Source of the DNA: Pseudomonas sp. A-1
Lineage (GTDB): Bacteria; Pseudomonadota; Gammaproteobacteria; Pseudomonadales; Pseudomonadaceae
Assembly: GCF_004801855.1 (NCBI RefSeq)
Contig: NZ_SSTC01000013.1
Span: 1 to 64,000, forward strand
DNA length: 64,000 nt
Direction of reading: 5' to 3'
Within the stretch, counting starts at the first letter, position 1. The number at the start of each line of letters is the position of its first letter. The notes below the pieces were generated by a model. The model had not been told where the DNA came from and did no database searches. It worked only from the letters and a program-made list of their open reading frames with translations. A program made the translations under genes and the position numbers. Of this stretch, positions 20,732 to 23,928 are shown piece after piece.

Positions 20732-20758
20732 GAACTTTTGTGCAGGGCCCGGGTCTAT
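20732..20758 (+). promoter_or_regulatory. Proximal AlgU-type promoter of the algU operon
   Basis: GAACTT at 20732-20737, a 16-bp spacer and TCTAT at 20754-20758 form a second near-consensus AlgU promoter about 60 bp upstream of algU. With the distal copy this gives tandem autoregulated promoters, as known for algU in P. aeruginosa. The rest of the 330-bp nadB-algU gap shows nothing else recognisable. Confidence 0.65.
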
Positions 20759-20817: not shown

Positions 20818-21399
20818 ATGCAAACCCAGGAACCGGATCAGCAACTGGTCGAGCGGGTCCAGCGTGGTGACAAGCGCGCGTTCGATCTGCTGGTGCTCAA
20901 GTACCAGCACAAGATTCTCGGGCTGATCGTGCGCTTCGTGCACGATCCCCAGGAAGCCCAGGACGTGGCGCAGGAGGCCTTCATCAAGGCGTATCGCGCG
21001 CTGGGCAACTTCCGCGGCGACAGCGCCTTCTACACCTGGCTGTACCGCATCGCCGTGAACACGGCGAAGAATCACCTGGTGGCGCGCGGGCGGCGCCCGC
21101 CGGACACTGACGTCAGCGCCGAGGATGCCGAGTTCTTCGAAGGCGATCACGCCCTCAAGGATCTCGAGACGCCGGAGCGCGCCCTGCTGCGCGATGAGAT
21201 CGAGGCCACTGTGCACCGGACCATCCAGCAGCTGCCCGAGGACCTGCGCACGGCGCTGACCCTGCGCGAGTTCGAGGGGCTGAGCTACGAGGACATTGCC
21301 ACCGCCATGCAATGTCCGGTGGGTACGGTGCGCTCGCGGATCTTCCGCGCGCGTGAAGCGATCGACAAGGCCCTGCAGCCGCTGCTGCACGAGGGCTGA
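20818..21399 (+). CDS. algU: ECF sigma factor AlgU (sigma-22, RpoE-like)
   Basis: The 193-residue extracytoplasmic-function sigma factor has region 2 with DVAQEAFIKAYRALGNFRG (residues 43-61) for -10 recognition and region 4 with YEDIATAMQCPVGTVRSRIFRARE near 150-173 for the GAACTT -35 box. It drives the envelope-stress regulon and alginate genes in pseudomonads. It has a strong AGGAGCTTG ribosome-binding site and heads an operon with its anti-sigma factor mucA, mucC and mucD. All sigma motifs are intact. Confidence 0.98.
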   Translation: MQTQEPDQQLVERVQRGDKRAFDLLVLKYQHKILGLIVRFVHDPQEAQDVAQEAFIKAYRALGNFRGDSAFYTWLYRIAVNTAKNHLVARGRRPPDTDVSAEDAEFFEGDHALKDLETPERALLRDEIEATVHRTIQQLPEDLRTALTLREFEGLSYEDIATAMQCPVGTVRSRIFRAREAIDKALQPLLHEG

Positions 21400-21428: not shown

Positions 21429-21983
21429 ATGAGTCGTGAAGTCCTGGATGAGTCGGTGTCCGCCGTCATGGATGGCGAGGCTGATGAGCTGGAACTGCGG
21501 CGCGTGCTCGCGGCAGCCGGCGAGGATGCGGCCCTGCGCGAGCGCTGGGCGCGCTACCAGCTGGCCCGTGACGTGATGCACAGGCAGGCCGTGCTGCCGA
21601 AGCTGGATCTGGCAGCCGCGGTGTCGGCGGCCATCGACGCCGAGGACGCCGCGGCACCGGTCGCCAGGCCGGCGCGCTCCTGGCGCCATCTGGGCCGCTT
21701 CGCCGTGGCTGCCTCGGTGACCCTGGCGGTGCTGGCCGGCGTGCGCTTCTACAACAACCAGGACGAAACCGGCATGGCGCCGCAGATGGCCGAGCAGAGC
21801 GTGCCGGTACAATCGTCCCAGCAGAAGCTGGCGCCGATCGCCGCAGCGCCGACGGACGCGCAGTTGGTGAGCTACCCGGCCGGCGCGGTGCAGGCCGAGC
21901 CCGCCAAGCCGGCCCAGCCGGACGACCTGATTCGCAGCGTGCCGCCGCAGCCGGCTGCCGAGGCTGCGGGCGCCGGGCGCTGA
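21429..21983 (+). CDS. mucA: Anti-sigma factor MucA with an unusual periplasmic tail
   Basis: This 184-residue inner-membrane protein holds AlgU inactive. Residues 1-78 form the sigma-binding domain (SAVMDGEADELELRRVL, RYQLARDVMHR, LPKLDLAAAVSAA), clearly conserved. One membrane helix lies at about 91-106. The periplasmic part (107-184) is rich in A, P, Q and E and looks disordered. I do not see the conserved tail with a WxxxRLPxY-like pattern that I recall from P. aeruginosa MucA (194 residues), a region involved in MucB binding and regulated cleavage. This agrees with the absence of mucB: the next gene, eight bases on, is mucC. Cleavage by the AlgW/MucP cascade may therefore be gated differently. 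Confidence 0.95.
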   Translation: MSREVLDESVSAVMDGEADELELRRVLAAAGEDAALRERWARYQLARDVMHRQAVLPKLDLAAAVSAAIDAEDAAAPVARPARSWRHLGRFAVAASVTLAVLAGVRFYNNQDETGMAPQMAEQSVPVQSSQQKLAPIAAAPTDAQLVSYPAGAVQAEPAKPAQPDDLIRSVPPQPAAEAAGAGR

Positions 21984-21990
21984 GGTCGGC

Positions 21991-22458
21991 ATGCTCGAGG
22001 AGCCGGGGCGGGTCGTCGCGGTCGAGGACGGAGCGGTGTGGGTGGAGACCCTGCGCCGCAGCACCTGCAGCGCGTGCTCGGCGAACGCCGGCTGCGGGCA
22101 GGGCCTGATGGAAAAACTGGGGGTCGGCCAGAAGCGCGGCTACGTGCGCGCACTGACCGATCTGCGGTTGGCGGTGGGTGACGGGGTGGTGATCGGCATT
22201 CGCGAGGATCTGCTGGTACAGAGCTCCCTGCGGGTCTACCTGCTGCCGTTGCTGGGGCTGTTTGCCGGTGCAATGCTGGCACAGTGGTTGGCGCTGGCCG
22301 AGTCTTTTGTCATTCTCGCCGCTCTGGGCGGATTCCTCGCGGTCTGGTGGCTGGTGCGCAGGCACAGCCGGCAGGACGTGGACGATCCGGCCCGACAGCC
22401 GGTCGTGCTGCGTGCCGAGCTGGCGGTCTGTGCGGTGCCGCCGGCGGAGAACGGCTGA
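21991..22458 (+). CDS. mucC: RseC/MucC-family membrane protein
   Basis: The 155-residue protein starts with a short cytoplasmic domain containing the four-cysteine RseC motif (CSACSANAGCGQG around residues 28-40), then two membrane helices at about 80-98 and 102-120. RseC/MucC proteins sit in the inner membrane and modulate sigma-E activity and reduction of Fe-S or thiamine-related functions; the Pseudomonas role is weakly defined. It starts only eight bases after the mucA stop, where P. aeruginosa has a roughly 950-bp mucB gene. Confidence 0.93.
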   Translation: MLEEPGRVVAVEDGAVWVETLRRSTCSACSANAGCGQGLMEKLGVGQKRGYVRALTDLRLAVGDGVVIGIREDLLVQSSLRVYLLPLLGLFAGAMLAQWLALAESFVILAALGGFLAVWWLVRRHSRQDVDDPARQPVVLRAELAVCAVPPAENG

Positions 22459-22503: not shown

Positions 22504-23928
22504 ATGCGTACCCTGAAACGCGCCATGCTGTCGCTGGCTGCGCTGCTGGCGATGGCCCAGGCACTGGTGGCCCATGCGCAGTTGCCGGAATTCACCGAGC
22601 TGGTCGAGCAGGCCTCGCCGGCCGTGGTCAACATCAGCACCCGGCAGAGCATGCCGGCCCAGGCCGCCGGCCTGCCGCCGCAGATGATGCCGGACCTGGA
22701 AGGCCTGCCGCCGATGTTCCGTGAATTCTTCGAGCGCAGCATCCCGCAGGTGCCGCCGGGACAGGCGCCGCGCAAGCGTCAGGCGCAGTCGCTGGGGTCG
22801 GGCTTCATCATTTCCAGTGACGGCTACGTGCTGACCAACAACCACGTGGTGGCCGACGCCGACGAGATCATCGTGCGCCTGTCCGACCGCAGCGAGCTGG
22901 AAGCCAAGCTGGTCGGCGCCGATCCACGCACCGACGTGGCCCTGCTCAAGGTCGAGGGCAAGAGCCTGCCGACCGTCAAGCTCGGCAAGTCGGACGAACT
23001 CAAGGTCGGCGAGTGGGTGGTGGCCATCGGCTCGCCGTTCGGCTTCGACCACTCGGTGACCGCCGGCATCGTCAGCGCCAAGGGGCGCAGCCTGCCCGAC
23101 GAGAACTACGTGCCGTTCATCCAGACCGACGTGGCGATCAATCCAGGCAACTCCGGTGGTCCGCTGTTCAACCTGGACGGCGAGGTGGTCGGCATCAACT
23201 CGCAGATCTTCACCCGCTCCGGCGGCTTCATGGGCCTGTCGTTCGCCATCCCGATCGACGTGGCGATGAACGTGGCCGAGCAGCTCAAGGCCGAGGGCAA
23301 GGTCAGTCGCGGCTGGCTGGGCGTGGTGATCCAGGAAGTGAACAAAGACCTGGCCGAGTCCTTCGGTCTGGACAAGCCGGCCGGTGCGCTGGTGGCCCAG
23401 GTGCTGGAAGGCAGCCCGGGAGCCAAGGGCGGCCTGCAGGTGGGCGACGTGATCCTGGCGCTGAACGGCCAGCCGATCGTGGTGTCCGCCGACCTGCCGC
23501 ACCTGGTCGGCACCCTCAAGCCGGGCACCGAGGTGGAGCTGGACGTGGTCCGCGAAGGCGAGCGCAAGCGCCTGAAGCTGGCCGTCGGCGCGCTGCCGGA
23601 AGAGGGCGAGGCGATCGCCTCCACGGGCAAGGACGATGCGGCGCGCAGCAGCAACCGCCTGGGGGTGACCGTGGTCGACCTCAGCGCCGAGCAGAAGAAG
23701 GCCCTGGAAGTGGAGGGCGGTGCGCTGATCCGCGAGGTGCAGAACGGCCCGGCGGCGCTGATCGGGCTGCGACCGGGCGACGTGATCACCCATCTGAACA
23801 ACGAGTCGATCGACTCGGCGAAGACCTTCGCCAAGGTCGCCGAGGCGCTGCCGAAGAATCGCAGCGTGTCGATGCGCGTGCTGCGCCAGGGACGCGCCAG
23901 CTTCATCACCTTCAAGCTGTCCGAGTGA
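22504..23928 (+). CDS. mucD: Periplasmic HtrA-type serine protease MucD
   Basis: The 474-residue DegP/HtrA family protease has a signal peptide (about 1-25, cleavage after AHA). Its trypsin-like domain carries catalytic residues His114 (TNNHVV), Asp144 (RTDVALL) and Ser217 (GNSGG), followed by two PDZ domains (about 265-355 and 385-465). It degrades misfolded envelope proteins and dampens AlgU activation. The ATG with an AAGGGAGT ribosome-binding site gives the same length as P. aeruginosa MucD. It is last in the algU operon and followed by a terminator-like hairpin. Confidence 0.97.
   Translation: MRTLKRAMLSLAALLAMAQALVAHAQLPEFTELVEQASPAVVNISTRQSMPAQAAGLPPQMMPDLEGLPPMFREFFERSIPQVPPGQAPRKRQAQSLGSGFIISSDGYVLTNNHVVADADEIIVRLSDRSELEAKLVGADPRTDVALLKVEGKSLPTVKLGKSDELKVGEWVVAIGSPFGFDHSVTAGIVSAKGRSLPDENYVPFIQTDVAINPGNSGGPLFNLDGEVVGINSQIFTRSGGFMGLSFAIPIDVAMNVAEQLKAEGKVSRGWLGVVIQEVNKDLAESFGLDKPAGALVAQVLEGSPGAKGGLQVGDVILALNGQPIVVSADLPHLVGTLKPGTEVELDVVREGERKRLKLAVGALPEEGEAIASTGKDDAARSSNRLGVTVVDLSAEQKKALEVEGGALIREVQNGPAALIGLRPGDVITHLNNESIDSAKTFAKVAEALPKNRSVSMRVLRQGRASFITFKLSE

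Follow-up and report, generated by a model that had tools for sequence, protein, structure and literature searches.

The genes for the sigma factor AlgU and the anti-sigma factor MucA of Pseudomonas sp. A-1 are followed directly by mucC and mucD, and mucB, whose product shields MucA from cutting under envelope stress, is missing from the operon. MucB/RseB is presented as a second lock that makes the release of sigma-E depend on two signals. The most likely reading of the data below, in which as a whole we place reasonable confidence, is that the ancestor of the genus lost mucB along with the MucA helix gripped by MucB, and that AlgU would now be released through proteolysis by AlgW and MucP, with activation of AlgW as the sole control. 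The genus is Geopseudomonas, in which P. sagittaria, P. linyingensis and P. oryzagri have been placed (PMC10797017). A literature search returned no paper describing natural absence of mucB in the Pseudomonadaceae.

Operon layout and the search for MucB

The window analysed here is a stretch of 64,000 nucleotides at the start of contig NZ_SSTC01000013.1, and the operon lies within it with the following features.

20732..20758, forward strand: AlgU-type (sigma-E-like) promoter GAACTT-N16-TCTAT, 86 bp upstream of algU, read in the sequence
20818..21399, forward strand: algU, ECF sigma factor of 193 aa (Pfam Sigma70_r2/r4_2)
21429..21983, forward strand: mucA, anti-sigma factor of 184 aa (RseA_N at residues 7–76, PF03872, E 3e-15)
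21693..21752, forward strand: transmembrane segment of MucA (GRFAVAASVTLAVLAGVRFY), a hydrophobic stretch conserved in the family alignment
21861..21872, forward strand: QLVS, the equivalent in MucA of the AlgW cleavage site, from the alignment
21873..21980, forward strand: MucA tail lacking both MucB-docking helices, alpha-I and alpha-II (motif absent), predicted to be disordered (AlphaFold)
21921..21944, forward strand: genus-conserved motif DDLIRSVP in the MucA tail, from pattern comparison
21984..21990, forward strand: mucA-mucC junction of 7 bp (GGTCGGC), the position of mucB in relatives
21991..22458, forward strand: mucC (RseC/MucC family), 155 aa (PF04246, E 6e-32)
22504..23928, forward strand: mucD, periplasmic HtrA-type protease of 474 aa (Trypsin_2 and two PDZ domains)

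The domain matches identify the four gene products without ambiguity. AlgU, which shares 93% identity with its counterpart in a MucB-bearing relative, and MucA constitute an ECF sigma factor with an adjacent membrane anti-sigma factor of the RseA_N type that has one transmembrane segment. The promoter element is found near -86 in most of 41 loci of the family, with and without mucB. The first-pass annotation of this DNA had pointed to the missing mucB, and the gene order algU-mucA-mucC-mucD bears this out: mucC starts seven bases past the mucA stop, with no mucB between them. Comparison with close relatives reveals the same arrangement in all eight genomes of the genus, the distance between mucA and mucC being 6–24 bp as against 941–976 bp in those MucB-bearing relatives that have mucC. 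The genome recorded as Stutzerimonas stutzeri K1 (G038, locus L105) groups with Geopseudomonas both in the searches of genomes and in the tree of AlgU and MucD, and its species label appears to be wrong.

A search of the whole genome for an RseB/MucB homologue found none outside the operon either. The PF03888 profile gave a single weak match, to a LolA-like protein encoded on contig C224, away from the operon, which matches PF17131 (LolA_like) with an E-value of 7e-51 versus 8e-8 for PF03888. No match in the genome was obtained with the PF17188 profile, which covers the C-terminal domain of MucB, the part that grips MucA, or with a direct tblastn search using a MucB; the window genome does not encode the combination of PF03888 and PF17188 that defines the MucB/RseB-gated subtype. 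The two domain profiles and the direct search likewise found no MucB in any of the eight Geopseudomonas genomes, including the complete genome of a conspecific strain (G050). Over the wider set, the direct search detected no MucB in 20 of 20 mucB-less genomes and matched all 17 of the MucB-bearing ones; its query was a composite that included AlgG, and the sole match in one mucB-less genome, G001, was AlgG.

The window genome is a draft of 246 contigs, which might suggest that a faulty join at 21980–21995 conceals a real mucB, but the probability of such an artefact is negligible. The same junction is present in the single contig of the conspecific strain, where MucA, MucC and MucD are 100% identical, and a mis-join is excluded on that account; the same kind of junction occurs in the single-contig congeners G061 and G069, and none of the loci contains N bases. 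Taken together, the junction in the conspecific strain and the negative searches for MucB across the genus also rule out a relocated mucB.

The MucA tail and paired losses across the family

The sigma-binding domain of MucA is intact, as had been proposed: besides the RseA_N match, residues 1–79 match AlgU-bound MucA of PDB 6IN7. The periplasmic tail had been described as divergent and of low complexity, which is correct insofar as the MucB-docking helix is absent, but the tail is not featureless. It is rich in alanine and proline, with AlphaFold pLDDT values below 50 from residue 115 onward except for two short breaks. MucB no longer binds P. aeruginosa MucA when W158, R162 or H170 of helix alpha-I is mutated, and helix alpha-II can be deleted with binding kept (PMC7400510). 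The equivalents of these three alpha-I residues, the numbering of which was checked on PDB 6IN9, are missing from the MucA studied here, and its alignment contains no conserved MucB-binding tail. What the tail does keep is the equivalent of the AlgW site and the pattern [DE]-[LI]-[LI]-R-x-[VL]-P, which is found in nearly all Geopseudomonas MucA tails. In the genus, pN/pS is mostly 0.5–0.8 for the tail versus 0.2–0.4 for the cytoplasmic domain, and the tail values, being below 1, indicate that some selection still acts on it. The idea that the tail arose by fusion with the end of MucB was rejected, its similarity to MucB C-termini being the same as that of shuffled controls.

A short motif conserved in the genus within an otherwise fast-evolving tail could be taken as the docking site of another protein that has assumed the role of MucB, and the LolA-like protein on contig C224, given its weak match to the MucB N-domain, could itself be that substitute. 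We regard a replacement of either kind as improbable. The MucB profile picks up a LolA-like match in only four of the eight members of the genus, similar weak matches occur in MucB-bearing genomes, and PF17188 is absent from 17 of 17 mucB-less genomes tested and present in five of five controls.

Among 148 genomes of the family, others without mucB are 10 of the 13 genomes of genus g6, one of the two g2 genomes (G001) and Azomonas agilis (G026); one more genome without a mucB match (G051) is 70% complete and has no mucA match either. In g6, G001 and G026 mucC is likewise missing, as it is in many MucB-bearing genera. In most of the more distant Gammaproteobacteria mucB follows mucA, and the order often continues with mucC and mucD, so that the loss of mucB is a derived state. 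A tree built from AlgU, MucD and the cytoplasmic domain of MucA implies at least four independent losses, each forced by well-supported branches (Geopseudomonas, g6, Azomonas agilis and one g2 species), and the alpha-I motif has been lost in all four lineages. The joint disappearance of a lock and the site where it docks, first suggested for the single operon of the window, is thus a pattern that recurs in the family.

In the MucA proteins of the family, a relaxed motif, [YF]-[LIVM]-x-x-H, is present in 71 of 71 that are accompanied by MucB and in none of 20 that are not, and the strict W..R..H motif in 66 of 71 and none of 20; since the relaxed motif was picked after the alignment had been seen, its perfect split is to be read beside the strict one. 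Fisher's p of 8e-16 for motif versus MucB ignores the non-independence of the genomes, and a paired sign test on the four loss events gives p = 0.125, four events being too few to give a value below 0.05. Nor is the strict motif perfectly tied to MucB, because three g6 species without W158 and R162 have kept MucB; these perhaps represent an intermediate state. The two g2 genomes have identical AlgU and 90% identical MucD, and a block within the docking region is missing from the MucA of G001. No remnant of mucB was found in the 575-bp gap between mucA and mucD of G001 (locus L083) or in g6. Two g6 loci (L072 and L080) have a strong hairpin followed by a run of T just 3' of mucA, and this suggests that algU and mucA may form a two-gene operon there, with mucD transcribed separately.

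Alginate genes and the probable route of AlgU release

The first-pass annotation had also drawn an analogy with the mucoidy that loss of mucB causes in P. aeruginosa, and this does not carry over. AlgG was not found in Geopseudomonas, g6 or Azomonas agilis, nor a full AlgE in Geopseudomonas, and the P. aeruginosa mucoid phenotype is therefore not expected in the genus. Matches to PF13372 in g6 are doubtful as AlgE, because AlgG is absent there and one genome, G098, has two such porins.

The absence of AlgG from all Geopseudomonas, all g6 and Azomonas agilis raises the alternative that, once alginate genes had been lost, control of AlgU became less important, so that mucB and its docking site drifted off and gating was not meaningfully changed. 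The weaker constraint on the Geopseudomonas tail is in keeping with this passive decay, which we consider possible, if somewhat unlikely. It sits poorly with G001, which has lost mucB but kept the genes for AlgG and AlgE, with the alginate-less genera g5, g8, g13, g15, g16, g18 and g19, which keep mucB and the docking helix, and with the mucB-less tails of g6, which are still constrained (pN/pS about 0.2). The first two of these observations contradict a simple explanation by alginate loss.

The preferred reading, release of AlgU through AlgW and MucP, draws on parts that have been retained. Both the site-1 (AlgW/DegS) and the site-2 (MucP/RseP) protease are encoded in the window genome: AlgW on contig C177 (E 5e-101, under the TIGR02038 cut-off, as in all Pseudomonadaceae searched) and MucP on contig C78 (E 1e-124, above the cut-off). 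An AlgW-type protease is present in every mucB-less genome examined, with the His, Asp and Ser catalytic motifs intact in all 15 of the mucB-less AlgW sequences aligned, and MucP in all mucB-less genomes tested. In a MucB-bearing genome of g12 (G012) the DegS profile gave only a MucD-like match, and this genome may lack AlgW, which would be the opposite loss. The AlgW site of P. aeruginosa MucA is VLAG at residues 134–137 (PMC8545111); its equivalent is VLAG in G001, VLAS in other Geopseudomonas and g6, and QLVS in this species, with no clear counterpart in Azomonas agilis. The change to QLVS may alter how efficiently AlgW cuts MucA here and counts against the preferred reading. In place of the alanine-serine of the congeners, QLVS has valine-serine, as at the V148/S149 site of E. 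coli RseA.

We infer from these sequences that AlgU release may be gated differently in this lineage, as had been proposed at the outset, which fits the kept AlgW and MucP and the putative cleavage site. MucA would still hold AlgU; tails of misfolded outer-membrane proteins would engage the PDZ domain of AlgW, which would cut MucA in the periplasm, and MucP and cytoplasmic proteases would complete its degradation. The second safeguard, the shielding of MucA by MucB that is relieved by lipid, would be gone, so that the switch would have a single lock and AlgW would be its sole gate. AlgW itself would then have to receive any lipid input. Since lipid A activates the P. aeruginosa enzyme directly in vitro (PMC8545111), the sensing of lipid need not be lost. 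It seems rather unlikely that AlgW alone integrates misfolded-protein and lipid signals while the new tail, with its DDLIRSVP-like motif, has acquired another regulator or tuned the contact with AlgW, in a system that has been repeatedly rewired. A single exact DNA pattern for a MucE-like activator had no match, and as it also failed in aeruginosa-group genomes, the result says nothing on MucE.

Comparison with known systems and the wider order

The operon resembles algU-mucABCD of P. aeruginosa and Azotobacter in gene order, AlgU-type promoter, sigma-binding domain of MucA, AlgW-MucP route, mucC and mucD, and differs from it in the deletion of mucB and of MucA helices alpha-I and alpha-II, in the change of the AlgW site from VLAG to VLAS or LVS in Geopseudomonas, and in that full AlgE and AlgG were not found in the genus. 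With rpoE-rseA-mucD of Xanthomonas campestris and Stenotrophomonas maltophilia, which serves envelope stress without rseB (PMC4229105, PMC10433810), it shares the plan of a sigma-E/anti-sigma/MucD operon; the natural Stenotrophomonas operon responds to envelope stress (PMC4229105). Those operons lack mucC too, whereas Geopseudomonas keeps it, and here mucB was lost inside a family in which it is the rule, the MucA docking helix being lost alongside. The two-protease release of the sigma factor proposed here is that of rpoE-rseABC of E. coli (DegS, RseP), but E. coli retains RseB and thus has two independent inputs.

Sampling across the order revealed more families with no rseB beside rseA, which suggests that MucB-less or MucB-rearranged operons also exist in several of its other families; with these and the Xanthomonas and Stenotrophomonas operons, the MucB-less arrangement is not new as a kind. 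In family f38, RseA is fused to the C-domain of RseB, with mucC and mucD downstream and, in three of four cases, a docking-like helix (e.g. KKYIDQH) between the two parts. The fusion resembles a hard-wired RseA-RseB lock that lacks the lipid sensor. Four RseB-less loci (L161, L162 and L163 of family f45, and L119:3890-4585) encode an RseA with a conserved tail of its own, made up of an RLxDYI-like helix and, after it, an SPLxRxV-like stretch. A helix-like RseA tail thus persists in some RseB-less lineages, perhaps for another partner.

The repeated natural loss of both lock and keyhole, with the other known parts kept, points to a stress switch that would run on one lock rather than two. Related species pairs with and without MucB would make the value of the second signal directly measurable, and G001, mucB-less with its alginate genes kept, is nature's equivalent of the mucB mutant made in the laboratory.
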